Shown here in pieces: positions 1,651-57,660 of a stretch of 64,000 nt of DNA. Every line of letters starts with the position of its first letter. The stretch's first letter is position 1. The notes below the pieces were generated by a model. It did not search any database. It was not told the DNA's origin and saw only the letters and a list, made by a program, of their open reading frames with translations. The DNA comes from Acorus gramineus (taxonomy: Eukaryota; Streptophyta; Magnoliopsida; Acorales; Acoraceae): assembly GCA_030737835.1 (NCBI GenBank), contig CM060849.1:1612001-1676000 (forward strand). Direction: 5' to 3'. The position numbers were made by a program, and so were the translations under genes.

Positions 1651-4600
1651 TGCTCCGAAAAGCCTTCCTCCCTCTCTTCCTGGTCCTTTCAGGGTCTACG
1701 TGTGTGGGGGTTCTTCAGAGGCTCGGATCTGGAGAGCTGCGCCTTGACGAGCTCGGTCGGATCATCTCTCAGAAGGGGTGGTGGGATGGTTTTTTTTGTT
1801 CCCCTCGGAAGGTCCTCAAGGGGAATTCCGGGGTAGTTGTGATCGCCACTTGCTTTTCTCAAAAAGCAGGAAAAGTTGGGGTGGGTTTGATGGCCTTCGT
1901 GGGGGAGTTTGTGGGGTTCTGCTCTAAGACACAGGCATGCCGTACACAGAGGTGAAGACAGGGATCCTCTTCTGCTTCAAATACTTGGCTAAAGGAGAAT
2001 TGGGACTCATGTAGGCTAGGGGAAGGGCCGACTAGTTAGGTTTAGCCGCCTGGTGGGGGCGGCTAGTTAGGAGTAGCCACCTGGTGTCTGGTTCAATTTG
2101 GGCAGAACCTGGGTAGGGTTTGATTTGGGTGTTTGGCAGAGGTTAAGCTAGATTTAACCTGGGTTTTGGAGAATGATTTGGTGCTCCGGAAAGCCTTCCT
2201 CCCTCTCTTCCTGGTCCCTTTAGGTTCTGCGTGTGTGGGGTTCCTTCAGAGGCTCGGGTCCGGAGAGCTGCGCCTTGGTTGGCTTGGTCATATCGTCTCT
2301 CGGAAGGAATGGTGGGTTGGTTTTTTTCGTTCCCCTCTGAGGCGGCTGACAGGTCCTCAAGGGGAATTCCGGGGTGGTTGTGATCGCCACTTGCTTTTCT
2401 CAAAAAGCAGGAAAATTGGGGTGGATTTGATCGCCTTCGTGGGGGAGTTTGTGGGGTCTCTGCTCTGAGACACGGGCATGCCGTACACAGAGGTGAAGAC
2501 AGGGATCCTCTTCTGCTTCGGGAACCTGACTAAAGGAGAATTGGGACTCAGGGGGGCTAGGGGAAGGGCCGGCTAGTAGGGTTTAGCCGCCTAGTGGAGG
2601 GGGCTAGTTAGGAGTAGCCGCCTGGTGTCTGGTTCAATTTGGGCAGAACCTTGGTAGGGTTTGATTTGGGTGTTTGGCAGAGGTTAAGCTAAGTTTAACC
2701 TTGGTTTTGGAGAATGATTTGGTGCTCCAGAAAACCTTCCTCCCTCTCTTCCTGGTCCCTTCAGGGTTCTGCGTGTGTGGGGGTTCTTCAGAGGCTCGGG
2801 TCCGGAGAGCTGCGCCTTGGCGGGCTTGGTCATATCGTCTCTCGGAAGGGGTGGTGGGTTGGTTTTTTTTGTTACCGTCTGAGGCGGCTGACAGTGTCAC
2901 GCCCCAGGGCGGCCGTCCCCGGGACGCGGCAAGTGTATATATGATATCAGTCTAAACAGGAGTTCAATATCATACTCACACAACAGCTAAAATGACATCA
3001 CAGACAAAAGCAGGGCTGACATGATATATACACAAATAGCGGAAGCTAAAAGACTGAATCTGTAATCCAAAAACATATTACAGACTCGATACATAATCAA
3101 CTGTCCTGTGAGAGCCAATATATACAAAGACATCCACATAATACACAAACGCGTGCCCAAGCACGGAATATAATACATACAATCACAAGGGATGCTGATA
3201 GCCTCTGATACTCGCGGGACGTGGCGCTACTCCGCTACTGATGAAGTCCCTTGGGGAGCTCCTCCTCCAGATCCGACTCAGATGACACTGGAGAAAAATA
3301 TTATGCGAGGGGTGAGCCACACGCTCAGTGAACAGCACAACCCATGCATCACAGCTATATTAACCACCAGATATTAATAATCCACAATCTCATTATTAAA
3401 AGCCATAAAATGGCAGGAACTACACAAATCCAGTGGGTCGCTATCGCCAACCCACAACACCCACACCCTCACCCCTCAATAGGTGACATAGGATATTAGG
3501 ACTTACAATCCAGTGGGTCGCTACATCGCCGACCCACCACACCCTCACCCTCACCCCTCAATATGGTGACATAGGATATTGGGACTGACTAGGCTGATGG
3601 TCACCCTTGGTCCACCGATAGTCTCTCCCCACTCCGTAGGCCGTTTGGCCACCCCCACATTCAGCACAGTCCGTCCCAAATCAGGAGGTGCCTACTGATG
3701 GGAGCCCCTGCACGGGACAACCTTTCCAACGCCGGGGTAGTCTCTACACGGATCTAACGAAGGGAACAGAACAGCCTATCCATCGCATATGATCCACTCG
3801 GATCCGCAGACAACACATCTCAACAACTCTAATGTCATGAATTCTTCAGAATTCCTCCAGGGCGCATAACCAAGATGCTGGGAACATATATAATAATAAT
3901 TATTAACAAGAGGTATAATAATAATTATTAACAAGAGTTATAATATTATTGGGACAAGAAACCTTGGGAGGGCAGCATGAGGTCCCGATACAGGACATCC
4001 CGACAACCAAACAAGGAACACGGAGTACCCTAGCCCGGGTCTCAATGTTGACCTCGCAAGGCCCCTCCCTATAATATTATATAAGGTATGCTAGCATTTA
4101 ATTTAATAAATCAAACTAATAGGACGCATGCATAGGTCGAGGCTTTCCTAGCATGATAACAAGGTGACAGGATGCACGGCTCTTACACATATCCTAAGGG
4201 TGCAAGTCCCTAACATACAAAGTCTAGGGTAGCATGCATACTACATTTTTATCATGCTTGCATGGATTACACATTACAAAAAGTTAATATAAATCCATGG
4301 TGCCCCAGGGGAGGACGGTACACCCCCAAGTGCGTATAGCGCCTCCCTACTGGGTTGGATTGTCCCACTCACCGATAGTCGGGTCGTCGCGCGATCGTCC
4401 GTCAAGATCTGCGAAATAGGGTAATCAATTCGGTGAGTAAAATACACAAATAAAACAAAAAATACATTAAAATACACAACACTCGGACAAGCGTACATAC
4501 GGCCTGTACGCACGCGAGCCCGAGCACTCCGACTCACTCCCGAACCCCCGGGCAGCCGTACGCGCGGCCACCCGACCCAGGCGCACAGCCGCGCCTCTGC

Positions 4601-6545
4601 CCGTGCGCCTAGTTGCACGGCCGAGCCCATCCCGCACGCCTGGACACCCCGTCGAGCCTCCCGGGTGCACCGCGCGCCCACTGCGCCCCAGCGCAGCAAC
4701 CCGCGCGCACACCCGCACGCCCAGCGCCCCAACGCCTCACCCCGCGCGCACCACCCGCGCGCACCACCCGCTCGCATCACCCGCTCGCACCACCCGCTCG
4801 ACCAGCCCTGGGTGCACCCGCGCGCACTGCGCCCCAGCGCAGCGCCCCGCACGCGCACCCGCCCGCATTGCGCCCCATCGCAGCGCCCGCACACCTGCCC
4901 GCTCACACTCCCCGCTCGCACTGACTGCTCGCCCCGCGCGCACTATGCCCCCTGCGCAGCACCCACACACCACCCGCTCGTCCACGCGCCCCTGCGCAGC
5001 GCTCCGCGTGCACGCCCCGCACTGCGCCCAGCGCGCCCGACCGCACGCGCTCAGCGAGCCCTTCAACACGCGCCCAGCGCGCCTGCCCGCAGCTCGCCCG
5101 CCTGCGCCTGCCTGCCTGCGCCTGACCGCCTGCGCCTGCCTGCCTGCGCGCGCCGCTGCCCGCATGCGCCCGAACCGAGCTTCACCCGCGTGCACGCCCA
5201 CGCTGCCCGAGCACTGCCTGCCTGCGCGCACATCCTACCCGAGACTGCCCTTCCACCACCCCGACGGCCACCAACGGCCTCCAACCACCTCCAACCGCCA
5301 CCAACGGCCACCCTCCGCCACCCACAGCCACCCCAACTCAAAAACATCCTCCTAACAAGCATCTAAGCAAGAAAAGGAAGGAAAGAAGGCTTACCCAAGC
5401 AAGGAAGGGAAGGAAGGGAAGTTCGGTTGCTCTCCGCGCACCGAAACACCTCCTCCAAGGCCACCACCACTGAGCTCTTCCTCAGCCCTCGAAATGGCTG
5501 AAAACAGAGGAGAAAAGAGGGTGAGAAGGGGCTAAACACACCGGAACTCGAATCCGAAACCACCGGTGGATAGATCGGGATGAGATCTAACCTTTCTCTT
5601 CTTTGTGTTTTTGGTTTTGACCCCTTGAACTAGGTCAAATGGTGGTTTTAAAGAGAGGGAGAGAGAGAGAGAAATTTGGAGACGATGATGAATAGGGGGG
5701 GTTTTGTCTTGGTCGTGGGATTTCTTTATACTCACACCCACACCTCACACACTCACACCCCCTAATTAGATTAGCCCTAATTAGGTTTAGGCTAGGTTTA
5801 GGTGAGTTAAAGTGGGTTTTGACTTGGGTCAACCCAACCACAAATAAAAACAAAAAGGGTTGACCAAGTCATGGGCCCACTTTGACCAAGTCAACTCTCC
5901 CATTGACTTCTCGCTCGGTCAAACCCCGGATACGCCCCGGAACTGCGAAATTCTGAGACGTTACCGGAATTTGATGAAATTTTTGTGAGTGGCTTGGAAT
6001 GTCACCAGGACACACATAATATGCAGTTAGATTCTCGATCGGAGTCCTCAAACTTAGGACGATAGCTAACAGCCCGAAATTTTAGCGGTTCCGATCGAAA
6101 AACGAAAAAAACTAAAAAACTGCCAGAATGTCCCAACGGTTACCAGAAGGTTAAAAGTGACACATATATAACAGACAGGTCCTCAGGGGGATTCTGGGGT
6201 GGTTGTGATCGCCACCTGCTTTTCTCAAAAAGAAGGAAAAGTTGGGGTGGATTTGATTGCCTTTGTGGGGGAGTTTGTAGGGTCTCCACTCTAAGACATG
6301 GGCATGCTGTACACAGAGGTGAAGACAAGGATCCTCTTCTGCTTCGGGAACTTGACTAAAGGAGATTTGGGACTCAAGTGGGCTAGGGGAAGGGCCGGCT
6401 AGTAGGGTTTAGCCGCCTGGTGGGGGCGGCTAGTTAGGAGTAGCCGCCTGGTGTCTGGTTCAATTTGGGTAGAACCTGGGTAGGGTTTGATTTGGGTGTT
6501 TGGCAGAGGTTAAGCTAGGTTTAACCTGGGTTTTGGGAGAGTGAT
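1651..6545. repeat. Three tandem units of about 0.53-0.54 kb, third one interrupted
   Basis: Units start at the shared string TGCTCCGGAAAGCCTTCC near 1651, 2182 and 2723, giving spacings of 531 and 541 bp. The third unit runs to 2894, is broken by a solo LTR and resumes at 6179-6545. Each unit has the same internal order: a CCTCCCTCTCTTCCTGGTCC stretch, a CTCAAAAAGCAGGAAAA stretch, GGCGGCTAG/TAGCCGCC pairs, and an end near GGTTTAACCTGGGTTTTGG. No coding sense is visible; open frames differ between units. The repeats belong to the Tat-type host and may lie in its LTR or 3' untranslated region. Confidence 0.85.
2895..6173 (-). mobile_element. Solo LTR-A, complete, TSD GACAG
   Basis: The LTR reads TGTCACGCCCC at the left and TATATAACA at the right, i.e. 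TG..CA ends, inverted relative to the strand shown. GACAG is repeated at 2890-2894 and 6174-6178, and the tandem repeat it hit continues exactly across. Length is 3279 bp with no internal region, so it is a solo LTR, the product of recombination between the two LTRs of one element. Read on the minus strand it has a TATA box (TATAAAG near 5724-5730), a TC-rich tract, a splice donor-like GGGTAAGCC (GT at 5394-5393), a CpG-rich block (about 4495-5265), an acceptor-like site, the 36 nt segment 4373-4408 and GTGAGTGG. A 25-bp AT-rich tandem duplication lies at 3889-3937. Long open frames in the CpG-rich block are compositional, not genes. Confidence 0.95.
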
Positions 6546-7447: not shown

Positions 7448-7914
7448 CCACGACCAAGACAAATTCCCCCACTATTCATCATCTTCTCCAAAAATCTCTC
7501 TCTCTCTCTCCCTCTCTCTCTCCCTCTCTTTAAATCCTCCATATGACCTAGTTAGGGTGGTCAAAATCAAAAACCCTAAGAAGAGAAAAGATAGGTAAGG
7601 ACCCGATCTACCTTCCGGTGGTCTCGGATTCGAGTTCCCTCAAGTGTGACCCCCTCTCATACCCTCTTTTCTCCTCTGTTTTCAGCCTTGCTTTGGCTGA
7701 GTGGAGATCTTGGTGGTGGTGGTCTTGGAGGTGGTGAATCGGTGCGCGAAGAGCACCCGATCTCCTCCCCTTCCTTTCCTCTCCTAGGGTAAGCTTCCTT
7801 CCCTTCCATTTCTTGTTTAGATGTATGTTAGGGTGTGTTTTTGGGAGTGAAAGATGTGCTTGGTGGTTTGGGAGTGGTTGTGGTGGCTGTTGGTGGCGGT
7901 TGGGGTGGTTGAGC

Positions 7915-8470
7915 TCGGCTCGGGTGCATGCGGGCAGCGGCGCGTGCAGGCAGGCAGGCGCAGGCGGGCAGGCGCAGGCAGGCAGGCGCAGGCGGGCGTG
8001 CTGCGGGCAGGCGCACTGGGCGCCTGCTGTCGGGCTCGCTAGGCGCGTGCGGTCGGGCGCGCTGGGCGCAGTGCACGGCGTGCACGCGGAGCGCTGCGCA
8101 GGGGCGCGTGGCGAGCGGGTGGTGTGCGGGTGCTGCGCAGGGGGCGCAGTGAGCGTAGGGCGAGCGGGGAGTGCGTGCGGGGCACTGCGCTGGGGCGTAG
8201 TGCGCGCGGGTGCACCCGGGGCTGGACGAGCGGGTAGTGCGCGCGGGGTGCTGCGCTGGGGCGCAGGGCGTGTGGGTGTGCGCGCGAGTTGCTGCGCTGG
8301 GGAGCAGTGAGCGCGCGGTGCACCTAGGGGGCTCGGTGGTGTGTCCGGGCATGCGGGCAGGGGCTCGGCAGTGCGTTTGGGCGCGCGGGCTGGGGCGCGG
8401 CTGTGCGCCTGGGTCGGGTGGCCGTGCGTACGGCTGCCCGGGGGTTCGGGAGTGAGTCGGGGTGCTCGGA
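7915..8470. repeat. CpG-rich, low-complexity block inside LTR-A
   Basis: This block is made of short degenerate repeats of the type GGCAGGCGCAGG and GGGCGCGCTGGGCGCAGTGC, with very dense CG dinucleotides and sharp edges against ordinary LTR sequence. Equivalent blocks sit at the same LTR position in other copies: 4495-5265, 17280-17780, 19700-20290, 46030-46640 and 49110-49600 (A), 33990-34545, 42660-42980, 57030-57540 and 63510-64000 (B), 52545-52850 (C). It is open in several frames on both strands, which follows from composition; the encoded Arg/Ala/Gly/Pro-rich peptides differ from copy to copy. Confidence 0.85.
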
Positions 8471-8581
8471 CTCGCGTGCGTATAGGGCGTATGTACGCTT
8501 GTCCGAGTGTTGCGTATTTTTAGTGTATTTTTGTATATATTTGTGTATTTTACTCACCGAGTTGATTACCCTGTCTTGCAG

Positions 8582-8617
8582 ATCTTGACGGACGGTCATG
8601 CGACGACCCGGGTATTG
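8582..8617 (+). other. 36-nt segment with splice-like borders (LTR-A reference copy)
   Basis: A polypyrimidine stretch and CTTGCAG precede it, and GTGAGTGG follows directly. The segment starts ATCTTGACGGACGGTC. Length is exactly 36 nt in all eight LTR-A copies and in LTR-C, and 39 nt in three of four LTR-B copies, while flanks vary. This is what an internal leader exon would look like. No transcript evidence was available. A small hairpin, GGTCG-N5-CGACC, is possible in most A copies. Confidence 0.55.
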
Positions 8618-9549
8618 GTGAGTGGGACAATCCAACCCAGTAGGGAGGCGCTATATGCACTTGGGCGTATACCGTCCTCCCCTGGGGCACCATAGTTAAT
8701 ATTAACTTGTGTAATATGTAATCCATGCAAGCATTATTAAAATGTAGTATGCATGCTGCCCTAGTCCTTGTATGTTAGGGACTTGCACCTTTAAGATATG
8801 TGTAAGAGCCATGCATCCTGACTCCATGTTTTCATGCTAGGAAAGCCTCGACCTATGCATGTGTCCTATTAGTTTAATTTATTAAATTAAATGCAAACTT
8901 ATGGTATTTTTGCATGCCTTAGTAAGTATTATAACCTGGTGGTTATTATATATGTTCCCCGCATCTTAGTTATGCGCCCTGGAGGAATTCTGAAGAATTC
9001 ATGACATTAGTAGAGTCTCCCTTCTCTGGATTAAAGGGCCTTGCGAAGTCAGCGTTGAGACCCGGGCTAGGGTACTCCGTGTTCCTTGTTTGGTTGTCGG
9101 GATATCCTATATCGGGACCTCATGGTGCCCTCCCAAGGTTTCTTTTTTTCAGTTAAGGGAATACCGCGGATCCGAGTGGATCGTATGCGTATGGATAGGC
9201 TGTTTTTGTTCCCTTCGTTGGATCCGTATAGAGACTGCCCCAGCGTTAGAAAGGCCGTCCTGTCAGAGGGCTCCCATCAGTAGGTACCTCCTGATTTGGA
9301 TTCGGACTGTGCTGAAGTGTGGGAGTAGGCCAAGCGGCTACGGAGTGGAGGAGAGACTATCGGTGGACCAAGGGTGACCAACAGCCTAGTCAGTCCCAAT
9401 ATCCTATGTCACCTATTGAGGGGTGAGGGTGAGGGTGTGGTGGGTCGGCGATGTAGCGACCCACTAGATTGTGTAGTTCCTGCCACTTTGAGGCTTGAAT
9501 AATAAATTGTGGTTAATATAAATTGTGATGCATGGGTTGTGCTATTCAC

Positions 9550-16898: not shown

Positions 16899-18490
16899 CC
16901 TACTTTGCATGGTAGGGCACATGCATCGGCCGGGCTTCCTAACATGGAACCAGGGGACATGTTGCATGGCTCATACACTAACCCTAAGGGTGCAAGTCCC
17001 TAACATGCAAAGTCTAGGGTAACATGCATTCTACAATTTAATCATGCTCGCATGATATACACATTACAATATGTCAATATTTATCCATGGTGCCCCAGGA
17101 GAGGTCGGTATACGCCCAAGTGCGTATAACGCCTCTCTACTGGGTTGGATTGTCCCACTCACCGGTATCTGGGTCGTCGCGCGACCGTCCGTCTAGATCT
17201 GCAAGACAGACATTCAATATGGTGAGAACAATGCATAAAATACCCAAAAATACATCTAAAATACCCAACACTCGGATAAACGTACATACGACTCGTACGC
17301 ACGTGTATCCGAGCATCCCGACTCACTCCCGAACCCACCGGGCAGCCGCACGCACGGCCACCTGCCCCGGGCGCATAGCCGAGCCTCGGCCTGCGAGCCA
17401 AGGCGCACTGCCGAGCCCAGCCCGCACACCCGGACACCACCGGCGCACTGTCGCACGCCGGCCCGCGCGCCCCGACGCGCCAGCACCCGCGCGCACCCGC
17501 GCGACCACTCCGCGCGCACCCGCGCGCATGCACCCACGCGCGACTGCGCGCCCGACTGCGCCTGCCAGCCCCCAGCGCCCAGCACCCGCGCCCAGCGCCC
17601 AGCACCCAGCGCCCAACGCCCGCGCCCAGTGCCCAGCACCCAGCGCCCAGCGCCACCCGCGCGCACGCCTGCGCGCACGCCCGCGCGCACGCACGCGCGC
17701 GCCCTACCAGTGGCCCTGCCTGCTGCGCCTGCTGCTGCTGCCTGTGCTGCTGCCTGCCTGCCAGCCCGAACTCCCTTACCACCCACCTCCGGCCACCAAT
17801 GGCCTCCGACCACCACTCCGACGGCCACCCACAGCCACCTAACCCCAAATCCATCCCCCTAGCATACATCTAAGCAAGAAAGAGAGGAAAAAGAGGCTTA
17901 CCACGGGGAGGAAGTGAAGTTCGGTTGCTCTCCACGCACCGAAACCTCCCTCAAAAGGCTTCTAACGCCCGGATCTACCTCCACCACCGAAATGGCTCAA
18001 ATCAGGGAAGAAGAGAGGGGGGACGGAGGGGAAAATCTCGCCGGAATTCGAATTTGAAAGCACCGGGGTGTAGATCGGGACCCGATCTACACTTCCTATG
18101 ATTTAGGTTTTAAGCTTTGAGGGCTCTAGGGGGGTCAAAAGTGAGAAAAAGAGAGAGGGGAGAGAGAAAAACTCATTTGGTAGGGATGATGAACAGTACC
18201 TCGAAAATTAGATCCCATCCTTATATAGTGAGCGACTTAAAAACCCAGATACGCCCCGGAACTGCGAAATTTTGGAAACGTTACCGGAATTCAACGAAAT
18301 TTTCGTGAGAGGTCTAAAACGGCACCAAGACACCAAATATGCAGTTAGATTTTCAATCGGAGTCCTCTAACTCAGGACGATAGCTAACAGTCCAAAAATT
18401 AGCGGTTCCGATCGAAAACCGAAAAAAATGAAAAACTGCCAGAACGCTCCAACGGTTACCAGCAGGCTAAAAAGTGACACATATATAACA
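16899..18490 (-). mobile_element. LTR-A fragment, reversed, left part missing
   Basis: From the internal string GGGTGCAAGTCCCTAACATG through the 36 nt segment (17163-17198), the CpG block (about 17280-17780), the leader region and TATATA (18222-18227) it ends with the proper LTR start in reverse (ACACATATATAACA). The next bases, AGCTC, duplicate the spot at which the adjoining LTR-A would have been hit. It was therefore probably a separate LTR nested in 18491-21164, with both left parts now lost. Confidence 0.8.
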
Positions 18491-21164
18491 AGCTCCTCCT
18501 TCAAGTCCGCCTCAGTAATCACTGGAGAAAATAATTATGCGAGGGGTGAGCCACACGCTCAGTGAATAGCACAACCCATGCATCACAATTTATATTAACC
18601 ACAATTAATCAAATCAATAGCCTCAAAGTGGTAGGAACTACACAAATCCGGTGGGTCGTTACATCGCCGAACCACCACACCCTCACCCTCACCCCTCAAT
18701 AGGTGACATAGGATATTGGGACTTATTATTCTGATAATCATCCTTACACAAATCCAGCCAGTGGGTCGCTACATGGCCGACCCACCACACCCTCACCCTC
18801 ACCCCTCAATATGGTGACATAGGATATTGGGACTGACTAGGCTGTTGGTCACCCTTGGTCCACCGATAGTCTCTCCTCCACTCCGTAGCCGCTCGGCCAC
18901 TCCCACATTCAGCACAGTCCGTCCCAATCAGGAGGTGCCTACTGATCGGAGCCCTCTCACGGGACGGCCTTTCAAACGCTGAGGCAGTCTCTACACGGAT
19001 CCAATGAAGGGAACAGAACAGCCTATCCATACGCATATGATCCACTCGGATCCGCTGACAACACATCTCAACAACTCTAATGTCTTGAATTCTTCAGAAT
19101 TCCTCCAGGGCGCATAACCAAGATGCGGGGAATATATAAGATAATAATGAGGAAAAGAAACCTTGGGAGGGCAACCTGAGGTCCCGATATAGGACATCCC
19201 GACAACCAAACAAGGAACACAGAGTACCCTAACCCGGGTCTCAATGTTAACCTCGCAAGGCCCCCTTAATATTCCCCAAGGCATACTAATGGACATATGG
19301 CCGCATTTAATTTAATAAATCAAACTAATAGGACACATGCATAGGTCGAGGCTTCCTAGCATGGAAACAAGGTGACAGGATGCATGGCTCTTACACATAT
19401 CCTAAGGGTGCAAGTCCCTATCATACAAAGTCTAGGGTAGCATGCATACTACATATTAATCATGCTAGCATAGATTACATATTAATCAGGTTAATATTAA
19501 CTACGGTGCCCCAGGGGAGGACGGTATACGCCCAAGTGCATATAGCGCCTCCCAACTGGGTTGGATTGTCCCACTCACCGATAACCGGGTCGTCGCGCGA
19601 CCGTCCGTCAAGATCTGCAAGACAGGGTAATCAACTTGGTGAGTAAAATACACAAATACACCAAAAATACACTAAAAATACACAACACTCGGGCAAACGT
19701 ACATACGGCCCATACGCACGCGAGCCCGAGCACCCCAACTCAATCCCGAACCCCCGGGCAGCCGTACGCACGGCCACCCGCCCCGGGCGCATAGCCGAGC
19801 CCCGGCCCGCGCGCCCAGACGCACTGCCGAGCCCAGCCCGCACGCCCGGACACCCTGCCGAGTCCCCCCGGGTGAACCGCGCGCTCATTGCGCCCCAGCG
19901 CAGCGACTCGCGCGCACACCCGCACACCTAGCGCCCCAGCACCTCACCCCGCGCGCACCCTGCGCGCACCACCACTCGCCCCACCGCGCGCGCACAGCAC
20001 GCTTGCGCCTCTGCAAAGCGCTCCGCGCGCAAGCCCCCGCACGGCGCCCTGCGCGCAGCACCCGCACGCGACCCCGCGCGCACGGCACGCACTACGCCTC
20101 TGCGCAACGCCCCGCGCGCACGCCCGCACACGGCGCCCAGCGCGCAGCTCCCGCACGCTCCTGCTCCACCCACGCGCACGCCCGCGCGCCCTGCCAGCCT
20201 GCTCTGCCCGCCTTGCCTGCCAGCCCGCCTGCCTGTGCTGCCTGCGTTGCCAGCCTACCCGAGACAGCCTGCCATCCAACCCGAGCCACCCTACCACCTC
20301 TCACCGGCCACCAATGGCCTCCAACAGCCACCAACAGCCATCCATACTCAAAACCACCCTCCTAACATGCATCTAAGCAAGAAAAGGAAGGAAAGAAGGC
20401 TTACCCTAGGAGAGGAAAGGAAGGGGAGGGGATCGGGAGCTCTTCGCGCACCGAAACACCGCCCCAACGACCACCACCACCTAGATCTCTACCTAGCCCA
20501 AGAGGGGCTGAAATCAGAGGAGAAAAGGGGGTGTTAGAGGGGGTCACACAAGTGGGAACTCGAATCCGAGACCACCGGAAGATAGATCGGGAGCTCACCT
20601 TTCCTTTCTCTTCTTAGGGTTTTTGGATCCAAGCCTTCTAGCTAGGTCATATGGTGGAAAAAGAGAGAGGGGGAGAGAGAAATTTAATTGGGGAAGATGA
20701 TGAATAGTGGGGGGGATATTTTAACTCACTTAAATAAGTCAACACCACTTAGATTAGGCTAACCTAGGTTAATTAGGGTTTAAGCTAGGATTAGTGAGCT
20801 TAAGTGAGCTTTGACTTAGGTCAACCCAACCTCACAAAAAAAACAAAAGGGGTTGACCAAGTCATGGGCCCACTTTGACCAAGTCAACTCTCCCAATGAC
20901 TTCTCGCTCGGTCAAAACCCGGATACGCGGCGGAATTGCGAAATTCTGAAACGTTACCGAAATTCGATGAAATTTTCGTGAGTGGCTTGGAATAGCACCA
21001 GGACACATAATATGCAGTTAGATGTTTAATCGGAGTCCTCAAACTCAGGATGATAGCTAACAGTCCAAAATTTTAGCGATTCCAATCGAAAAACGAAAAA
21101 AACTAAAAAACTGCCAGAATGTCCCAATGGTTACCAGAAGGCAAAAAGTGACACATATATAACA
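18491..21164 (-). mobile_element. LTR-A, probable 3' LTR of the gag-pol element, first part missing
   Basis: It lies directly after (in reverse sense) the polypurine tract of the gag-pol at 21213-25765 and ends in ATATATAACA at 21164. The 36 nt segment is at 19579-19614 and the CpG block at about 19700-20290. The GGGTGAGGGTGAG module is present twice (about 18675 and 18800). Roughly the terminal 0.35 kb is missing at the left edge. Confidence 0.85.
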
Positions 21165-25765: not shown

Positions 25766-25769
25766 GGGC

Positions 25770-27485
25770 TCGCGGGCTGGGCTCGGCAGTGCGTCTGGGC
25801 GCGCGGGCCAGGGCTCGGCTGTGCGCCCGGGGTGGGTGGCCGTGCGTGCGGCTGCCCGGGGGTTCGGGATTGAGTTGGGGTGCTCGGGCTCGCGTGTGTA
25901 CGGGCCGTATGTACATTTTCCCAAGTGTTGTGTATTTTTAGTGTATTTTTGGTGTATTTGTGTATTTTACTCACCTAGTTGATTACCCTGTCTTGCAGAT
26001 CTTGACGGACGGTCGCGCGACGACCCGATTATCGGTGAGTGGGACAACCCAAACCAGTTGGGAGGCGCTATATGCACTTGGGCGTATACCGCCTTCCCCT
26101 AGGGCACCATAGTAAATATTAACTTGTGTAATATGAAATCCATGCTAGCATGATTAATATGTAGTATGCATGCTACCCTAGACTTTGTATGTTAGGGACT
26201 TGCACCCTTAGGATATGTGAAAGAGCCATGCATTCTGTTACCTTGTTTCCATGCTAGGAAGCCTCGACCTATGCATGCGTCCTACTAGTTTGATTTTTTA
26301 AATTAAATGCGAACGTATGTCTATTAGTATGCCTTGGGGAATATTAAGGGGGCCTTGCGAGGTCAACATTGAGACCCGGGCTAGGGTACTCCGTGTTCCT
26401 TGTTTGGTTGTCCGGATGTCCTATATCAGGGCCTCAAGTTGCCCTCCCAAGGTTTCTTTTCCTCATTATTATCTTATATATTCCCTGCATCTTGGTTATG
26501 CGCGCTGGAGGAATTCTGAAGAATTCAAGGCATTAGAGTTGTTGAGATGTGTTGTCGGCGGATCAGAGTGGATCATATGCGTATGGATAGGCTGTTCTGT
26601 TCCCTTCGTTGGATCCGTGTAGAGACTGCCCCAGCGTTAGAAAGGCTGTCCCGTGAGAGGGCTCCCATCAGTAGGCACCTCCTGATTGGGACGGACTGTG
26701 CTGAATGTGGGAGTGGCCAAGCGGCTACGGAGTGGAGGAGAGACTATCGGTGGACCAAGGGTGACCAACAGCCTAGTCAGTCCCAATATCCTATGTCACC
26801 ATATTGAGGGGTGAGGGTGAGGGTGTGGTGGGTCGGCGATGTAGCGACCCACTGGATTTTTGTATGGATGATTATCAGCCTTGTAAGTCCCAATATCCTA
26901 TGTCACCTATTGAGGGGTGAGGGTGAGGGTGTGGTGGTTTGGCGATGTAACGACCCACCGGATTTGTGTAGTTCCTGCCACTTTGAGGCTATTGATTTGA
27001 TTAATTGTGGTTAATATAAATTGTGATGCATGGGTTGTGCTATTCACTGAGCGTGTGGCTCACCCCTCGCATAATTATTTTCTCCAGTGATTACTGAGGC
27101 GGACTTGAAGGAGGAGCTCCCCGAGCGACTGCATCAGTAGCGGAGTAGCGCCACGTCCCATGAGTTTTAGAGGCCATCAGCATCCTTTTTTATTGTATGT
27201 ATATATTTCCGTGCTTGGGCACCCAGTTTGAATTATATTTGGATGTATGTGTATATATTGGCTCTCACAGGACATTTGATTATGTATCGAGTCTGTAGTA
27301 TGTTTATGGATTACAGACTCAGTCTTTTAGCTTCCGCTATCTGTGTATATATCATGTGAGCCTTGCTTTCATCTGTGTTGTCATTTTAGTTATTGTTTAG
27401 AGGAATTTATTGATCTCCTGTTTAGACTGCTGATATCATGTATACACTTACCGCGTCCGGGGGACGGCCACCCTGGGGCGTGACA
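25770..27485 (+). mobile_element. LTR-A fragment, forward, right half
   Basis: It begins within the CpG-rich block, next to the truncated gag, and runs to GGGGCGTGACA. The 36 nt segment is at 25999-26034. The GGGTGAGGGTGAG module is doubled (about 26812 and 26915). Its end carries the right-hand GCGGG duplication of the composite. Confidence 0.88.
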
Positions 27486-32480: not shown

Positions 32481-34979
32481 ACACTACTGGATCATCTACA
32501 TCTAGATAATCGCCCATCGATGTCCTTCAACATCCATCACGAGACCGGACCCAGCATCTATGGGAACAGTCGAACAACGAATGGGTCACGAGGCGTCGCG
32601 TCTTCGCCTCATCCACACCCTCACTCTTGAAAGGAGACATCTTGGGACTTTGGGAGAGACTTAGACTGCTCTACACCCCTGGTCCACCGGTAGCCTCTCC
32701 CCGCTCCGTAGCTTACCTGGTCCACTCCCACGATTCAGCATAGTCCGAAACACATCAGGAGGTGCCTACTGATGGGAGCCCTCTGTCAGGATAGCCTGTC
32801 TAACGCCGGGGATGTCACTACTCGGATCCAACGAAGGGGAGAACGATTCCACGCTCGCGACATCATTCAATAACCCTCTCCCGGGTAGTATCTACAACCC
32901 GATCTCCTCAACTCACCACTCTCGATACTCGCTCATCGAGATGCCACACACATGCATAACAACAACCAACACACGCATATTAACCTCAAAGTAGTCGTAG
33001 TCCCTGTACGGGAGTAACTACACAAGCCAGTGGGTCGCTACATCGCCGACCCACCACACCCTCACCCTCACCCTCAAGCTGGTGACATGGTCTTTTGGGA
33101 CTGACTAGGCTGTTAATCACCCTTGGTCTACCGATAGCCTCTCCCCGCTCCGTAGCTTACCTGGTATACTCCCATGATCAGCACTGTCTGAAACACAATC
33201 AGGGGGTACCTACAGATGGGAGCCCTCTGTCAGGATAGCGTATCTAACGCCGGGGCTGTACTACACGGATCCAACGAAGGGAAGAGAACAGCCTACCAAC
33301 ACGCATGCGATCCTCTTGGATCCGTTGACAACGCTTCCTAACATTTCTAATGACATGAATTCTCAAGAATTCCACCAGGGCGCATAACCAAGATGCAGGG
33401 AGACATATATTATAACAACATGGTTATAATATTCTCTAAGGCATGCTTGCAACTATATGCTCACATGATCCCCTAAGATGGGGGGGAGACATATATCATA
33501 ACCACAAGGTTATAATATTCTCTAAGGCATGCTCACATTCTGATTTAATTAGATTAAACTAGATGGGAACATGCATAGCTCGGGGCTTGGTGTCTAAGCA
33601 TGCATATAAGGGTGCATATCCCTAGCATACAAAGTCTAAGGTGGCATGGATACATCATATTGATCATGCATAGATCAAGGCTTTTAAGTACAGGACATGG
33701 TGTCCAGGCATGTACGGGCCTCTATACACGATACATGGATGTATATCCTAAGCATGCAAATATCTACATATTAGTAAGGGGGGGGGGCATCGATGCGCGA
33801 CGCGCGTCTACGTGGGTCGAGCGCATCCCTAGAGAGGGGGGGGGGATTGGAATCAAACCACTCACCTTACGACCCGGGACCTCGCGCATCCCATCTGACG
33901 AGATCTGCAAGGTAGGGGCATTGAACTGGTGAGACACAACACAATTTATACACAAAAATAATTAGAAATACCCCATACTCGGACAAGCATGCATACGGGC
34001 TCGCACGCATGCGAGCACGCACGTACGCACGCGAGTCCGAGTGCCCCGACACCTACCCGAACCCTCGGGCAGCCACACGCATGGCCCCCCGCATGCGCAC
34101 GCACGAATGCGCACGCACGCACGCACCCCAGCACCATCGGCGCACTGCCGCGCGCCTGCCCGCGCGCCCAGATGCGCTGCCGCACGCGCGCGCACTGCGC
34201 GTCCAGCCCTGCGCGCCCCTGCGCACACTGCGCCCCCCGCGCAGCACCCCGCGCACGCCCCAGCACGCGCACGCACGCACACGCGCGCACTGGTCCCCTG
34301 CCCCGCGCCTAGGCGCATGCCCAGACGCCCTGCCGCGCGCGCGCACGCTCGCGCGCACTCCCGCGCGCGCCCTCGTGCACTCGCGAGCGCACCCCCGCTC
34401 GCACCTCCGCTCGCGCCTGCACCCGCGCGCACTCCTGCGCGCACCCGCTCACCCGCGCGCACGTGCCCGTGCCCGTCTGCGCGCCCGCCAGCGCTCGTCT
34501 GCGCCTGCCTGCGCGCGCACGCGCGCAGACCGCGCCCAGCCAACCCTAACCCCATTTTAACCCTTCCCAACCCCTCACACACACCCTAACACCTCTACCT
34601 AGCATGCATGACCTTCCCAACACCCTTTTAAGCCAAGAAAATCAAGAAAAGAAGGGGAGGAGCTCACCTTGGAGGGGGAACAAAAGAGGGAGGTTCGGGG
34701 GCCCTCGACGCACCCGTGACCACCTCAACCGCCACCACCACTACCACCACCCCTCGGCCTCTCCTCAGCCTCCATGGCTGCAAACAGTGGGGGGGGGGAA
34801 GATCATGTAAAGGGGGCTTGAGAGAGAGAGGAACACACAACAACAACACAAACACAACCTTCTCTTCTTCCTTCACCTCTTCCTTCTCTTCTTCTCATTG
34901 TGACAAAAACACAAACACATGGGGGGGTGTTTGCAAGAGAGAAAGAGAGAAAAGAATTCTGGTCGTGGAAGTGAGAAGG

Positions 34980-35666: not shown

Positions 35667-36794
35667 CGGCAGTGCGTTGAGGCGCGCGGGCAGGCCCGCG
35701 GTAGTGCGCCGGTGGTGCCGGGTGTGTGCGTGTGTGCGCATTCGTGCGTGCGGATGCGGGTGGCCGTGCGTGCGGCTGCCCGGGGGTTCGGGAGTGAGTT
35801 GGGGTGCTCGGACTCGCGTGCGTACAGGCCGTATGTACGCTTGTCCGAGTGTTGGGTATTTTAGTGTATTTTTAGAGGATTTTTTTTTAGTATTTTTGTG
35901 GTATTCTTGTGTGTTTTACTCACCTAGTTGGTTACCCTGTCTTGCAGATTTTGACGGACGGTCGCGCGACGACCCGGATTCCGGTGAGTGGGACGATCCA
36001 ACCCAGTAGGGAGGCGCTACATGCACTTAGGCGTGTACCGTCCTCCCCTGGGGCACCATAGTAAATATTAACCTGTTTCATATGAAAACTGTGTAAGCAT
36101 GGTAATCTGTAGTATGCATGCCACCCTAGATTTGTATGCTAGGAACTTATACCCTTAGGGCCCGTATAAGAATCATGCACCCTGTTATCATGTTTCCATG
36201 CTAGGAAAGCCCCGACCGATGCATGTTCCTATTTAGTTTAATTTATTTAAATAAAATGCGAGCATGTGATTATTAGCCTGTTTTAACGAATATCATAGGG
36301 GAGGGGCCTCGCGAGGACAGCGGTGAGACCCGGGCTAGGGTACTCCGTGTTCCTTGTTTGGTTGTCGGGATGTCCTATATCGGGACCTCACGCTGCCCTC
36401 CCAAGGATTCTTTCCCCGTTAATATTCCAACCCTGTTATAACTATTATGCATGTTCCCCGCATCTTGGTTATGCGCCTCGAAGGAATTCTGAGGAATTCA
36501 GGACATCAGAGTTGTTAGGATGTGTTGTCTGCGGATCCGAGTGGATCATATGCGATGGATAGGCTGTTCTGTTCCCTTCGTTGGATCCGTGTAGAGACTA
36601 CCCCGGCGTTGGAAAGGTCGTCCCGTGCAGGGGCTCCCATCAGTAGGCGCCTCCTGATTTGGTAGAAGGACTGTGCTGAATGTGGGAGTGGCCAAACGAC
36701 CTACGGAGTGGGGAGAGACTATCGGTGGACCAAGGGTGACCAACAGCCTAGTCAGTCCCAAGAGCCTAGGTCACCTATTGAGGGTGAGGGTGAG
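35667..36794 (+). mobile_element. LTR-A fragment, forward, both ends missing
   Basis: It starts within the CpG-rich block and stops inside a GGGTGAGGGTGAG module where a reversed LTR-A begins. Its first 90 bases resemble LTR-B (GGCAGTGCG..GGGCAGGC), and the rest is clearly LTR-A, including the 36 nt segment at 35948-35983. Junction at about 35750. Confidence 0.8.
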
Positions 36795-41151: not shown

Positions 41152-43818
41152 AGACTGCTCTACACCCTTGGTCCACCGGTAGCCCTTTCTCCGGGCAGCC
41201 TCTACCTGGTATACTCCCACGATCACTACGTTATTGAATGCATCAGTAGTACCTACGGATGGGAGCCCTATGTCAGGACAACTTTTTTAACGCTGGGGAG
41301 TTCCTACACTGATCCAATGAAGGGGAGAACGATTTCACGCTCACAATATCATTCGTTAGCCCTCTCCCGGGTAGCCTCTACCTAGTATACCCCCATGATC
41401 AGTATATCTTGCCGCATGCATCGATAGTACCTACAAGTGGCGCCCCTCTGTCGGGACAGCTTAAACCCGGCCCGCTTCAATATGGACAACATTGGGAGGA
41501 AACACTCCATGTTCGTAAAGCGAACCCAATGGAAGAACAACTACTCTCGATAATCGCCTAACTTAATGCCAAAGCTACCGGTTTAACAAAACCGATACAA
41601 CAAATGAATTCTCCTGAATTCCATTCAAGTGCATCACACGGATGCAGGGGCGATTACATCGCTCGCACACTAACTAATGAGGCACATCCCAACGACGGGT
41701 CGTACCCACGCCTATTTCAGATAGGCCTAATTAGTTTTAACATGTGCGCATATATAACAGGAGAATCATATCATAGCTATGTGCATGAACCATATGCACG
41801 ATCATCTAACAATTGACTATAAGGGTAACCCCTAACATGGATTTACATCATAAACAACAAATCATACAACATGCATACAAGGTATGGCCCACTTAAACAT
41901 GCATACATGGCCATTAATCATATAAGCACACAAGGCATAACTTAAGCATGCGTTGGATATCACCAACTTAAAAGGGAAGGGTCAAGCGCGATCTCGCGCA
42001 CTAACAGGTGCATGCTAATATTCCAAACGAACCTGAGTCGAGTAGGAAATCGCATCTACTTACTCAGTTCGTGCAGAGGGAGAGGGCGAGAGAGAGATCA
42101 TCATCTCGTGAAGTTGGTCATAGCTTTGACCCATTAGCATGGGTGCAACAACTACACCACGCCCTCGAGTCTTATCGCAAGGGAATATTGGGCAGATGCC
42201 CATTATTAACCTAGACTTAATCATGCTGGATATTCCAATTAATATGGTGGGAGTAGTATTACAATACTACCTAAGGCATGCCCTATTCTATACATCCATA
42301 CACATTATAGAAATACATGCCCATACTAGAGGGGCGCATGCGATACAGTTATTCATACATTGATACAATACATGCAATATAAGCCTAGCATGAAAGATAT
42401 CTAACATATTATAGTTTAAGCATGGCCATACTACATATCTACACAAGTAGTATAGCTAGGGTGCCCCATCGATGCGCGACGCACGACTACGCACATCGAG
42501 CGCATCTCGAGGGGTTGGATCAAACAACTCACCGCAACCCGGGACCTCGCGCATCCCATCCAATGAGATCTGCAAAATAAGGGCATCAATTTGGTGAGTG
42601 ACATCACATTATGACACTTAGAAATTAATAAAAATGCCAAAGACTTAGATATGCACGCATACGAGCTCGCACGCATGCAAGCACACACGTACGCACGCAT
42701 GCCCAAGCCCCCCAGCACCTACCCAAGCCTTCAGGCAGCCCCGCGCATGCCCTTGCACGCGCATGCGCGCGCGCGCGCATTGGCGCCCTGCCGCATGCCC
42801 AGGCGCACCCAGACATGCTGCCCCGCACGCGCGCACGCTCGCGCGCACGACCTGCCTGCACCGCGTGCGTTGCCAGGCCCCGCGCGAACTTGCGCGCTCG
42901 CTCACCGCGCACCTGTGCGCCCGCGCGCAGGCGCACGCTCCCGCCTGCGCCCTTTTGCGCGCCAACGCGCGCGCGAGTAAACCCTTTAACCCCTCCCCCA
43001 CACTCCACACTCACCCTAAACCAACTACCTAGCATGCATGACTCCCCAACAACCCCTAAAGCCATGAAAAACCAAAGAAAAGAAGGGGGAGAGCTCACCA
43101 AGGGAGGGGGAATGTAAGGGGGTGATTCGGGGGCCCTCGATGCACCCGCGACCACCTCAACCACCACCACCACTACCACCACCTCCACAGCCTCTCCTCA
43201 GCCTTCTTTGGCTGAAAAACAGGGGGGGGGAAGACATGAGAGGGAGCTTGAGTGAAAAGAAACCACAACAACAACAACACACACAAACCTACCTTCTTGC
43301 ACTTCCTTCTTCACCTTCTCCTTCAATTGCTTCTTCCTCCTCCTTCTTCACACACAAAGAGGGGAAAAAGAGACCAAGAGAGGGAGAGAGAGAGGGCAAA
43401 AATGTCATTTTCAAGCCCAAATAGTGTCTAGGGGTGACCATAAGGGGGTGGTGAGGTTAGGGTTAGGCTCACCCTCACTCAACCACTCATTTTTGCTTTA
43501 TTGGGAAGCGTGCGGAGAAGCACCACACACTCGAAAATATCTCACCGACCGAAACCCAGTAACGGCCAAACCCAGATGTGATTCGGAACTGCATATTTTT
43601 CAAAATGTTATCGGAATTCGATGAAATTTTTATGGGTAGTACAAAACGGTACCAGGACCCATAATATGCAGTTAGATTTTCAATCAGAGTACTCCAACTC
43701 TCATAGGTGGTTAAAAGCCAAAATTTTAGCAACTCCGATCGAAAAAGAAAAAGGCCCTGAATGACCCAGATGTGACCAAGGCTTAATCGAAATGGCTCCA
43801 AATGACACAGGCATAACA
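41152..43818 (-). mobile_element. LTR-B, 3' LTR of an inverted non-autonomous element, left part missing
   Basis: It runs from the point hit by the LTR-D element to the LTR start in reverse (GACACAGGCATAACA). Next comes a reversed polypurine tract. The segment equivalent to the 39 nt piece is 42533-42569 (37 nt, two bases lost). The CpG-rich block is short (about 42660-42980). Confidence 0.9.
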
Positions 43819-45089: not shown

Positions 45090-48000
45090 TGTTATATATG
45101 TGTCACTTTTAGCCTTATGGTAACCATTGGAGCAATCTGGCAGTTTTTGAGTTTTTTCGTTTTTCGATCGGAACCGCTAAAATTTTGGACTGTTAGCTAT
45201 CGTCCTGTGTTTGAGGACTCCGATTGAAAATCTAACTGCATATTATGTGTCCTGGTGCCATTTTAAGCCACTCACGAAAATTTCATCGAATTCCAGTAAC
45301 GTTTCAGAATTTCACAGTTCCGGGGCGTATCCGGGTTTTGACCGAGCGAGAAGTCATTGGGAGAGTTGACTCGGTCAAAGTGGGCCCATAGACTTGGTCA
45401 ATCCCTTTTGTTTTTATTTGTGGTTGGGTTGACCCAAGTCAAAACCCACTTAAACCTAATTAATCAAGCCTTAATCCTAGTTAACCCTAATCTAAGTGTG
45501 TTGACTTATTTAAGTGAATCTAAAAATTAGCCCCCCACTATTCATCATCTTCTCCATTTGATTTTCTCTCTCCCCCTCTCTTTTTCTTGGGTTTGAGCTA
45601 CCTAGAGTGCTTGAAACTCAAAACACAAAGAATAGAAAGGTTAGATCTCATCCCGATCTATCTACGGGTGGTCTCGGATTCGAGTTCCCACTTGTTTGAC
45701 CCCCTCTTACCCCCTCTTTTCTCCTCTGATTTCAGCCATTTCGAGGGCTGAGGAAGAGCTCGGTGGTGGAGGTCTTTGGGGAGGTGTTTCGGTGCACGAA
45801 GAGCTCCCGGTCCCCTTCCTTTCCTTCCCTTTCCTTGGGTAAGCTCTCTTTCCTTCCTTTTCTTGTTTAGATGCATGTTAGGAGGGTTTTTTTGGGTGTG
45901 TGGTGGCTGTTGGAGGCTGTTGGTGGTGGTTAGGGGCCATTGGTGGCCGGTTAGAGGAGGTAGGATGGCTCGGGCAGATGGTTGGCTGTCTCGGGCAGGA
46001 TGGCAGCACAGGCAGCGCAGCAGGCAGCGCAGAAGGCGGAGCAGGTGGCAGGGCGCGCGCGCGCGTGCGCGCGGGCGTGCGCTCGGGCGCTGGGCGATGG
46101 TCGCGGGTGCTGGGCGCTGGGTGCGGGTTCTAGACGCTGGGCGATGGTCGCAAGTGCTAGGCGCTGGTCGCGAGTGCTGGGCGCTGGGCGCCGTGCGCGG
46201 GTGTGCGCGTGGGGCGCTCGCAGAGGCGCGGTGCGTGCCGCGCGCAGGGGGCCGCGTACGAGTGCTGCGCGTAGGGCGCAGCGGGTGTGCGCGATGGGGC
46301 GAGCAGTGGTGCGCGCGGGGTGCGCGCGGGGCGAGGCGCTGGGCGCAGGGCATGCGAATGTGCGCGCTGGGCGAGCCGGTGGTGCGCACGGGTGGGGGGC
46401 GAGGCGAGGAGGCGCGAGGCGTGCGGGTGTGCGCGCGAGTCGCTGCGCTGGGGCGCAGTGGGCGCACGGTGCACCCGAGGGTCTTAGCGGAGTGTGCGGG
46501 CGTGCGAGCTGGGCTCGGCAGTGCGCTGGGCGCGCGGGCCGGGGCTTGGCTGTGCGCCTGGGGCGGGTGGCCGTGCGGGCGGCTGCCCGGGGGTTCGGGA
46601 GTGAGTCGGGATGCTCGGACTCGCGTGCGTACAGGCCGTATGTACGGTTGTCCGAGTGTGGGGTATTTTTAGTGTATTTTTGTGTATTTTTGTGGTATTT
46701 GTGTATTTTTACTCACCAAGTTGATTAACCTGTCTTGCAGATCTTGACGGACGGTCGCGCGACAACCCGGTCACCGGTGAGTGGGACAACCCAACCCAGT
46801 TGGGAGGCGCTATATGCACTTGGCGTATACCGTCCTCCTCTGGGGCACCGCAGTTAATATTAGCTTGTTAATTGTAATCCATGCAAGCATGATTAATGTG
46901 TAGAATGCATGCCACCCTAGACTTGTATGTTAGGGACTTGCACCCTTAGGATATGTGTAAGAGCCGTGCATCCTGTCACCTTGTTATCATGCTAGGAAAG
47001 CCTCGACCTATGCATGCGTCCTATTAGTTTGATTTATTAAATTAAATGTAGACTTATGATATCTTTAGCATGCCTTAGGGAATATTAAGGGGCCTTGCGA
47101 GGTAAACATTGAGACCCGGGCTAGGGTACTCCGTGTTCCTTGTTTGGTTGGCGGGATGTCCTATATCGGGACCTCAGGTTGCCCTCCCAAGGTTTATTTT
47201 CCCCATTATTTATCTTATATGTTCCCCGCATCTTGGTTATGCGCGCTGGAGGAATTCTGAAGAATTCAAGACATTAGAGTTGTTGAGATGTGTTGTCGGC
47301 GGATCCGAGTGGATCATATGCGCATGGATAGGCTGTTCTGTTCCCTTCATTGGATCCGTGTAGAGACTGCCCCGGCGTTAGAAGGGCTGTCCCGTGCAGG
47401 GGCTCCCATCAGTAGGCACCTCCTGATTTGGGACGGACTGTGCTGAATGTGGGGGTGGCCAAGCAGCCTACGGAGTGGGGAGAGACTATCGGTGGACCAA
47501 GGGTGACCAACAGCCTAGTCAGTCCAAATAGCCTATGTCACCTATTGAGGGGTGAGGGTGAGGGTGTGGTGGGCCGGCGATGTGGTGACCCACTGGATTG
47601 TGTAAGGATGATTATCAGCCTATTAAGTCCCAACATCCTTTGTCACCTATTGAGGGGTGAGGGTGAGGGTGAGGGTGTGGTGGTTCTGCGATGTAAAGAA
47701 CCCCCGGATTTGTGTTGTTTATGCCACTTTGAGGCTTTTGCTGATTAATTGTTGTTAATATGAACTGTGATGCATGGGTTGTGCTATTCACTGAGCGTGT
47801 GGCTCACCCCTCGCATAATATTTTTCTCCAGTGATTACCGAGGCGGACTTGAAGGAGGAGCTTCCCGAGCGACTGCACCAGTAGCGGAGTAGCGCCACGT
47901 CCCTCAAGTTTTAGAGGCCATCAGCATCCTTCCTTTTTATTGTATGTATATTTTCTGTGCTTGGGCACCCATTTTGGATTGTACTTGGATTATTGATGTA

Positions 48001-48230: not shown

Positions 48231-49637
48231 TAATCACCCTTGGTCCACCAATAGTCTCTCCTCCACTCCGTAGGCCGCCTGGTCTACTCCCACAATTCAG
48301 CACAGTCCGAACCCAAATCAGGAGGTGCCTACTGATGGGAGCCCTCTGTCAGGAAGGCCTGTCTAACGCTGGGACAGTCTCTATACGGATCCAACGAAGG
48401 GAAAAGAAACAGCCTATCCACACGTATACGATCCACTTGGATCCGCGGTATTCCTTAACTGGAAAAAGAAACCTTGGGAGGGCACCATGAGGTCCCGATA
48501 TAGGATATCCCAACAACCAAACAAGGAACATGGAGTACCCTAGCCCGGGTCTCAACGCTGACTTCGCAAGGCCCCTTAATCCAGAGAAGGGAGACTCTAC
48601 TAATGTCATGAATTCTTCAGAATTCCTCCAGGGCGCATAACTAAGATGCGGGGAACATATATAATAACCACCATTTTATAATACTTACTAAGGCATGCAA
48701 AAATACCATAAGTTCGCATTTAATTTAATAAATTAAACTAATAGGACACATGCATAGGTCGAGGCTTTCCTAGCATGAAACATGGTGTCAGGATGCATGG
48801 CTCTTACACATATCCTAAGGGTGCAAGTCCCTAACATACAAGGTCTAGGGTGGCATGCATACTACATATTAATCATGCTTGCATAGATTACATATTATAC
48901 AAGTTAATATTAAACTATGGTGCCCCAAGGGAGGACGGTATACGCCCAAGTGCATATAGCGCCTCCCTACTGGGTTGGATTGTCCCACTCACCAATACCC
49001 GGGTCATTGCGTGACCGTCCGTCAAGATCTGCAAGACAGGGTATTAAACACGGTGAGTAAAAATACACAATACATACAAAAATACGCTACAAATACCCAA
49101 CACTCGGACAAATGTACATACGGCCCGTACGCACGAGAGTCCGAGCACTCCGACTCACCCGAACCCCTGGGCAGCCATACGCACGGCCACCCACCCCGGG
49201 CGCACAGCCGCGCCCCAGCCCGCGCGCCCAGACGCACTGCCGAGCCCCCTGCCGCATTCTCAGACACGCTGCCGCGCCCAGCCAGCACGCCCAGACACAC
49301 CGCACGCTCGGGCGCACGCACGCGCACGCCCTTGCGCACCGCGCGTCCCGCCCCGGATGCACCCGCGCGCACTGTGCCCCAGCGCAGTGCCCGCACGCAC
49401 TCCCCACTCGCCCTGCGCGCACTGCGCCCCGTGCGCAGCAACCGCACACCGCCCACTCGCCCAGCGTACTGCGCCCCCCGCACAGCACCCGCGCGCATGC
49501 CCGCGCGCACGCGCGCGTGCCCTGCCAGCTCGCCCAATAGCGCGCCTGCCAGCCTGCCCAAGCTGCCTGCCTGCCTGCGCCAGGGAGCCCGCACTGCCTG
49601 AGCCGAACCCAACCACCTCCAACAGCCACCAACAGCG

Positions 49638-49657
49638 CCCCCCCCCCCCCCCCCCCC
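49638..49657. repeat. Homopolymer, 20 C
   Basis: At the edge of the CpG-rich block of the LTR-A at 44479-50504. The length is likely to be uncertain. Confidence 0.9.
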
Positions 49658-57621: not shown

Positions 57622-57660
57622 ATCTCGCCGGATGGGATGCGCGAGGTCCCGGGTCGTAAG
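57622..57660 (+). other. 39-nt segment with splice-like borders (LTR-B)
   Basis: CTTGCAG before, GTGAGTGG after. The sequence ATCTCGCCGGATGGGATGCG differs from the 36 nt A form, but borders and position match. The same 39 nt length is found at 27807-27845 and 33866-33904. Confidence 0.55.

Follow-up and report, generated by a model that had tools for sequence, protein, structure and literature searches.

Intron-like blocks within the long terminal repeats of Ty3/gypsy retrotransposons in Acorus gramineus and genomic copies that lack them

Long terminal repeat (LTR) retrotransposons of plants are generally intron-less, and the available text of a 2025 review names Ogre and EVADE as exceptions (PMC12786077). 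For Ogre, EVADE and BARE, the introns described in the accessible portions of the literature are situated in the internal region of the element (PMC12786077, PMC6317226, PMC3735527), and elements of sunflower also splice, according to the available part of PMC7730604. For BARE, the available text of one study holds that spliced RNA must stay out of replication (PMC3735527). The present work concerns a stretch of 64,000 nucleotides (nt) from Acorus gramineus, hereafter called the window (GenBank assembly GCA_030737835.1, contig CM060849.1, positions 1,612,001 to 1,676,000 of the forward strand). It is a pile of nested LTR-retrotransposon pieces of the Ty3/gypsy type, whose LTRs carry two predicted introns. 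Intron 2, and in about half of the cases also intron 1 as judged by eye, is exactly removed in DNA copies that were inserted as LTRs elsewhere in the same genome, and it can be stated with high confidence that partly spliced RNA was reverse-transcribed.

Ogre, a Ty3/gypsy element of the Tat lineage, resembles these elements in that a plant Ty3/gypsy element carries a partly spliced intron (available parts of PMC6317226 and PMC12786077), whereas the introns of the present elements sit inside the LTR leader. For BARE1 and EVADE, which belong to Ty1/copia, the likeness is that splicing divides the RNA for translation from the RNA for replication (PMC3735527 and PMC12786077, as far as their accessible text goes). 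They differ in that their intron is internal and in that DNA copies of spliced BARE RNA could not be amplified (PMC3735527), whereas the present elements have such copies. The ta-TRIM solo LTRs of Echinococcus produce cis-spliced transcripts that start in the LTR, but according to the available text these are spliced into downstream host sequence (PMC4558846), while in the present elements introns 1 and 2 have all of their conserved splice sites inside the LTR. The position of introns 1 and 2 within the LTR thus sets them apart from introns of the internal coding region of the Ogre, EVADE and BARE type; the comparison with these three elements covered LTR introns. In retroviruses such as HTLV-1 and the foamy viruses, the splice donor is located in the R region of the LTR, and the spliced RNAs do not serve as the genome. 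Such retroviruses are not known to carry two complete introns inside one LTR. Judging from titles and abstracts in the openly licensed literature, no previous description of LTR introns in plants was recognised.

Genomic LTR copies without introns

Three LTR types were distinguished in the window by self-comparison and alignment, namely A (n = 9), B (n = 5) and C (n = 1). The original prediction had described a segment of 36 to 39 nt at a fixed place in 13 LTRs and had interpreted it as a mini-exon, with a CpG-rich block upstream acting as an intron and a further intron ending at an acceptor-like CAG about 1 kb downstream. On the plus strand of LTR copy A2, intron 1 is predicted at 7595..7685 (donor score 9.0, acceptor TTTTCAG with a score of 7.9, CTCAT at -27; scores are from plant-like weight tables). 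It is followed by exon 2 at 7686..7788, whose length of 103 nt recurs in 5/5 A copies with an intact acceptor 1, and by intron 2 at 7789..8581, which contains the CpG-rich block. The 36-nt segment at 8582..8617 would be the start of exon 3, and the donor-like GTGAGTGG on its 3' side (8618..8625) is a putative donor, referred to as donor 3. The earlier junction of 7788 with 8582 coincides precisely with the exon-2/exon-3 junction predicted here, and intron 1, upstream of the CpG-rich block, is an addition to the earlier account. From donor 1 to acceptor 1, intron 1 spans 91-96 nt in five of the A copies, and its length in C is 93 nt; the sequence of donor 1 varies among copies, yet it scores 8.2-11.2 in these six LTRs. 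Intron 2 measures 515-986 nt.

The source genome, comprising 398.6 Mb in 137 contigs, was searched for joined exons. The A/C exon-2/exon-3 junction had 183 matches at up to two mismatches, 10 of them exact, compared with 6 for the reversed control. Among the first 100 matches listed, many of the places with two mismatches are altered acceptors and not junctions. The B-type junction had 41 matches, 12 of them exact, and none for the reversed control. On inspection, 19 of 20 A/C loci and 12 of 12 B loci lacked intron 2 exactly from donor to acceptor; the odd locus (L045) retains the intron, and its acceptor is damaged. In total, 31 of the 32 junction loci read are LTR sequences that miss the block from the donor to the CAG, which bears out the earlier view of the CpG-rich block as an intron whose acceptor is the 5' border of the segment.

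The state of intron 1 in these 31 processed copies was read by eye and not by one-by-one alignment. It is absent in 16 of them, comprising 11 of the 19 A/C and 5 of the 12 B copies (L030, L031, L034, L036, L038, L039, L041, L042, L044, L046, L047, L049, L053, L054, L057 and L059), and kept in 11 (L029, L032, L035, L037, L040, L043, L048, L051, L055, L056 and L058). L050 and L052 have about 8 extra nt, and L060 is unreadable for intron 1. Exact removal in reverse-transcribed copies is thus found for intron 2 and, as read by eye, for intron 1. Three of the copies that keep intron 1 (L032, L035 and L048) have a donor 1 and acceptor 1 of poor splice-site fit, like window copy A9. As a side observation, they and the window sequence at 17901-17995 form an LTR subfamily with broken-looking intron-1 sites, whose processed copies retain intron 1 and have lost intron 2. 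L033 carries a 12-nt GTAAG..TTTCAG remnant of intron 1 next to an exact loss of intron 2.

Several processed copies have the surroundings of inserted LTRs. Matching 5-bp target-site duplications (TSDs) flank L030, L037, L038 and L044, a primer binding site (PBS) follows L036, L043 and L047, and a polypurine tract precedes L041 and L046; for the other processed LTRs, both ends were not found. L030 (G000:C2:31526559) and L038 (G000:C93:454885) share the same TSD and closely similar flanks on two contigs, by which they are a duplication or an unmerged haplotype. Copy C1 of the window was also considered as a naturally processed LTR and rejected, since its deletion ends at no predicted splice site.

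The A/C tree of 46 rows, from which L045 as well as L018 and others without a matching exon-3 string were left out, has 7 changes between the processed and unprocessed states, all 7 of them forced by supported branches, and contains one very long branch. The tree implies that intron 2 was lost several times independently in A/C LTRs. The B tree of 18 rows has 6 changes, of which only 3 are forced, and two doubtful long branches. DNA deletion hardly explains exact losses that recur in this way, and introns exactly excised from scattered LTR copies point to spliced element RNA that was copied back into the genome.

Conservation of the segment borders

All 13 segments were recovered at the positions and lengths given by the original prediction, with 36 nt in nine, 39 nt in three and 37 nt in one. 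Besides A2, the 36-nt segments are found on the plus strand in A4 (25999..26034, 5' truncated), A5 (35948..35983, truncated), A7 (46741..46776, intron 2 at 45839-46740) and C1 (52933..52968, intron 2 at 52418-52932). On the minus strand, they are found in A1 (4373..4408, intron 2 at 4409-5394), A9 (17163..17198, intron 2 at 17199-17901), A3 (19579..19614, intron 2 at 19615-20404) and A8 (48993..49028, intron 2 at 49029-49748). The 39-nt segments belong to B1 (27807..27845, plus strand), B2 (33866..33904, minus strand, intron 2 at 33905-34667) and B3 (57622..57660, plus strand, intron 2 at 56903-57621), and the 37-nt segment to B4 (42533..42569, minus strand, intron 2 at 42570-43098). A CAG precedes the segment in 13/13 copies, but the longer TTGCAG or CTGCAG claimed for every copy is replaced by TCGCAG in 4373-4408. 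Likewise, GTGAGT follows in 13/13 and the full GTGAGTGG in 12/13, while 42533-42569 has GTGAGTTG instead. The upstream donor-like GGTAAG or GGTGAG is present in each of the 11 aligned copies extending this far.

The fixed length of the segment was rejected as evidence because, across eight A copies, 120 of 405 windows of 36 nt show the same constancy. With C added, 68 of 405 are of fixed length, and the fixed run extends beyond both borders of the segment. The constellation of AG and GT at a distance of 30-45 nt was also rejected as not exceeding chance: it occurs 31 times in the window compared with a mean of 24.3 in 12 shuffles, and 10 of the 31 are the described segments. By contrast, the splice-signal columns around the segment, which were chosen after the fact, are invariant in 15 of 15 cases across the 13 copies versus 45 of 170 other nearby columns. 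In a wider set of 48 copies, found by an intron-3 anchor in the window and in L009-L028, the borders are conserved as well (GTGAGT in 46/48, GCAGAT in 44/48, CTCACC in 43/48).

Strong sites, at one aligned column each, were found for donor 2 in 11/11 copies, acceptor 2 in 13/13 and donor 3 in 13/13, and the GTGAGT of donor 3 scores in the top 6% of GT sites in 13/13 copies. On the antisense strand, which served as a control, no acceptor column is strong in all copies. The columns that are strong in every copy covered are limited to sense donor 2, donor 3 and acceptor 2, plus one antisense donor. Under a looser 60% rule, the sense strand has 8 further donor and 4 further acceptor columns, compared with 2 and 2 in antisense. 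A CTNAY motif at -24 to -29 accompanies 30 of 34 acceptors, compared with 219 of 1412 pyrimidine-rich background AGs (searched at -18 to -34). Introns 1 and 2 accordingly have the conserved donor, acceptor and branch-like site of GT-AG spliceosomal introns, more weakly so for intron 1 of A9 and of most B copies. These comparisons strongly suggest that the splice-like signals are conserved beyond chance, unlike the segment length or the AG..GT spacing.

The downstream border and the proposed leader

The notion that the segment is a closed mini-exon, with the LTR CAG about 1 kb on as the end of the next intron, finds no support in the genomic copies. GTGAGTGG still adjoins the segment in 31/31 processed copies, and a junction of the segment with the LTR acceptor had no match in the 398.6 Mb for two A-type patterns, a result for DNA that leaves such a junction possible in RNA. 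The LTR acceptor is probably not the partner of the segment. GTGAGTGG may instead be the donor for another acceptor, located before gag on the far side of the PBS, or may have no use as a donor. Three of the loci retrieved from the genome contain gag frames. In these, 5 nt separate the LTR end from the start of the PBS, the first position of gag is PBS+115, and the gag ATG is preceded at 9 nt by the end of a strong acceptor (score 7.5, 98.1 percentile). Rival acceptor-like sites are present nearby, one with a higher score at PBS+49 and several before the PBS. Of 15 distinct PBS regions, 14 have the acceptor motif before gag; a branch-like site accompanies it in most A-type and few B-type regions. 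In the window, where the PBS TGGTATCAGAGC follows LTR B3 at 59850..59861 on the plus strand and a second PBS lies at 53751-53762, the counterpart is TTATCTTAG directly followed by GTTGCTGACATG at 59940..59961 (plus strand), a putative acceptor with its homologue exon start at 53851. These two window counterparts score 4.5 and 5.9, and no CTNAY branch was found for them. The junction predicted from this arrangement joins the end of the segment to GTTGCTGA(C/T)ATG at gag and is proposed tentatively, with nearly an even chance of being correct.

In the proposed mechanism, a leader transcribed largely inside the LTR is very probably interrupted by spliceosomal introns, with intron 1 of about 90 nt and intron 2 of 515-986 nt dividing exons 1, 2 and 3, and with the 36-39-nt segment as the first part of exon 3. 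Donor 3, the GTGAGT after the segment, would be joined to the acceptor that ends 9 nt upstream of gag, and this last intron would contain the PBS together with about 390 nt of conserved sequence. The gag mRNA spliced in this way would then have few upstream AUGs and be unable to be reverse-transcribed, while RNA retaining the last intron would be the genome. Since splicing from donor 3 to the gag acceptor would put the PBS in the intron, its product could not become an LTR, and intron 3 would never be missing from DNA copies. Introns 1 and 2, being located upstream of the PBS, can be lost when partly spliced RNA is copied, and this has happened repeatedly. To account for the great excess of LTRs with introns, either unspliced genomes would have to be at an advantage or strand transfer would have to bring the introns back from the 3' LTR. 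That the spliced LTR leader separates messenger from genome through donor 3 and the gag acceptor is conceivable to a degree that falls just short of an even balance.

Several observations weigh against the splicing interpretation as a whole. With up to two mismatches allowed, 11,529 A-type acceptor sites still have the intron, and the processed copies are a small minority; their rarity indicates that splicing before copying is exceptional or that introns are usually restored. The retention of the sequence after the segment in every processed copy means that removal of intron 3 was never seen among the copies read. In A9 and in the majority of B copies, donor 1 is weak or lost or acceptor 1 is weak, and the GC content of intron 2 reaches 77% in its middle, which is unusual for a plant intron. 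The weight tables behind the splice-site scores are approximations, and the one antisense donor column, the reverse complement of CTCACC, is strong in 13/13 copies. In four A copies, 32-41 ATGs fall in introns 2 and 3 versus 0-2 in exons 2 and 3 together with the final 90 nt of exon 1, which speaks for the model, but this shortage is not significant, with 3 seen and about 5 expected from shuffles. A coding exon was considered separately and rejected, as A1 and A7 have no ATG from the last 90 nt of exon 1 to exon 3 and the open frame that follows the LTR acceptor in A copies is not shared by the B copies.

The alternatives differ mainly in what they make of donor 3. It may be no donor at all, so that past intron 2 one long last exon would run through the remainder of the LTR and the PBS, with the 36-39-nt segment as no more than its start and GTGAGT kept for another reason such as RNA pairing. 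This is a serious possibility, though one that attracts somewhat more doubt than belief, and it agrees with the 31/31 copies that retain the downstream sequence and with the missing A-type junctions. Against it stand the conservation of GTGAGT in 46/48 copies, its rank among GT sites in 13/13 and its persistence in processed copies although the pairing partner CTCACC is lost with intron 2; an acceptor past the PBS would, moreover, leave no trace in DNA. The full mini-exon model, in which the next intron ends at the LTR acceptor (9589 in A2), draws on a motif that precedes this acceptor 10 times in the window, on scores in the top 1.2% for the 8 copies scored, and on CTCAC at -24 to -26 in 10/10 LTR acceptors. 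It is nevertheless improbable, since such a junction would lie upstream of the PBS and hence be copyable like that of intron 2, but is not seen for the two A-type patterns, and the LTR acceptor is deleted in C1.

Explanations without splicing fare worse. The CUCACC that precedes the segment is able to pair with the GGUGAG that follows it in 13/13 copies, and an outer stem with invariant arms appears in all 13 folds, so that a hairpin around the segment could have kept the borders. However, the z-scores are only -0.7 to -3.4, the inner folds vary between copies, and the consensus covariation term is only -0.52 with one two-sided pair. As the sole cause, the hairpin was rejected because it cannot yield the exact loss of intron 2 or processed copies, which makes this account very unlikely; the predicted hairpin may coexist with splicing as a splice-site mask. 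Chance DNA deletions as the origin of the intron-less LTRs, or borders that are neutral leftovers of common ancestry, would fit the background level of length fixity and of the AG..GT constellation. The breakpoints, however, are identical to the base in A/C and B at 31 of 32 loci read, and the A/C tree has several losses, while the B tree, with its doubtful long branches, has only the 3 forced changes; this explanation is the least credible of all.

In this genome, a family with 11,529 counted acceptor matches carries LTR introns, and the DNA copies of its spliced RNA are a readable record. This makes it possible to test how retroelements balance translation against replication, by what means introns persist in a sequence that passes through RNA, and whether genes next to solo LTRs receive spliced leaders from them.

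Element class and other features of the window

The gag gene lies on the minus strand at 24747-25937 and is followed by a protease-reverse transcriptase-RNase H-integrase frame at 21975-24743, which places the elements in Ty3/gypsy. The domain order of protease, reverse transcriptase, RNase H and integrase with gag upstream is that of a chromovirus, and a chromodomain (PF00385) follows the integrase at 21216-21374 (E-value 6.7e-06, 26.4 bits with a cut-off of 25.1). The PBS TGGTATCAGAGC just 3' of the LTR, which we take to match the initiator Met tRNA, also agrees with a chromovirus. By domain order, chromodomain and PBS, the elements are classified as plant-type, chromodomain-bearing Ty3/gypsy chromoviruses, with the Tekay/Del clade considered.

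No tRNA genes were found in the window with ARAGORN, and no Rfam family reached its gathering score, with one weak match (E-value 0.94) in a 2271-base piece. An exact-pattern search of IMG/VR and GTDB contigs found no relatives.

Five solo LTRs, four of type A and one of type B, are flanked by 5-bp TSDs (GACAG, AAACT, TAATC, AGTAC and CTTAA). Solo LTR A7 (45090-48230, TSD TAATC) is nested inside solo LTR A8 (TSD AGTAC), within 44479-50504. At 25766, an inverted junction is found where the minus-strand gag directly abuts a plus-strand LTR-A fragment. The regions 53475-56212 and 59574-62312 are direct copies of an internal region with 95.7% identity; they have a PBS, are without a long gag frame and probably represent a non-autonomous element. 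Both contain a piece resembling intron 3 of LTR-A, near 54190-54290 and 60290-60390.

After the LTR acceptor, the A copies share an acidic open frame of about 17 codons (9589-9641, 27088-27140, 47832-47884 and homologues), which in A1 and A7 is not connected by any ATG with a frame farther upstream. It ends in a common TAG except in a truncated copy at 18521, and in the A copy at 36793-38398 it is altered by an in-frame insertion. Within intron 3, the conserved sequence of about 390 nt is located at 3505-3896, 18758-19144, 37438-37829 and 33022-33415 on the minus strand and at 26469-26858, 47210-47601 and 58079-58470. As a candidate structured module, it has few two-sided changes, in 4 of 50 pairs, and a covariation term of -0.67. 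Its identity between A and B is about 80%, while much of the remaining LTR is not alignable between the two types, and the B LTRs contain a second, partial copy of it.

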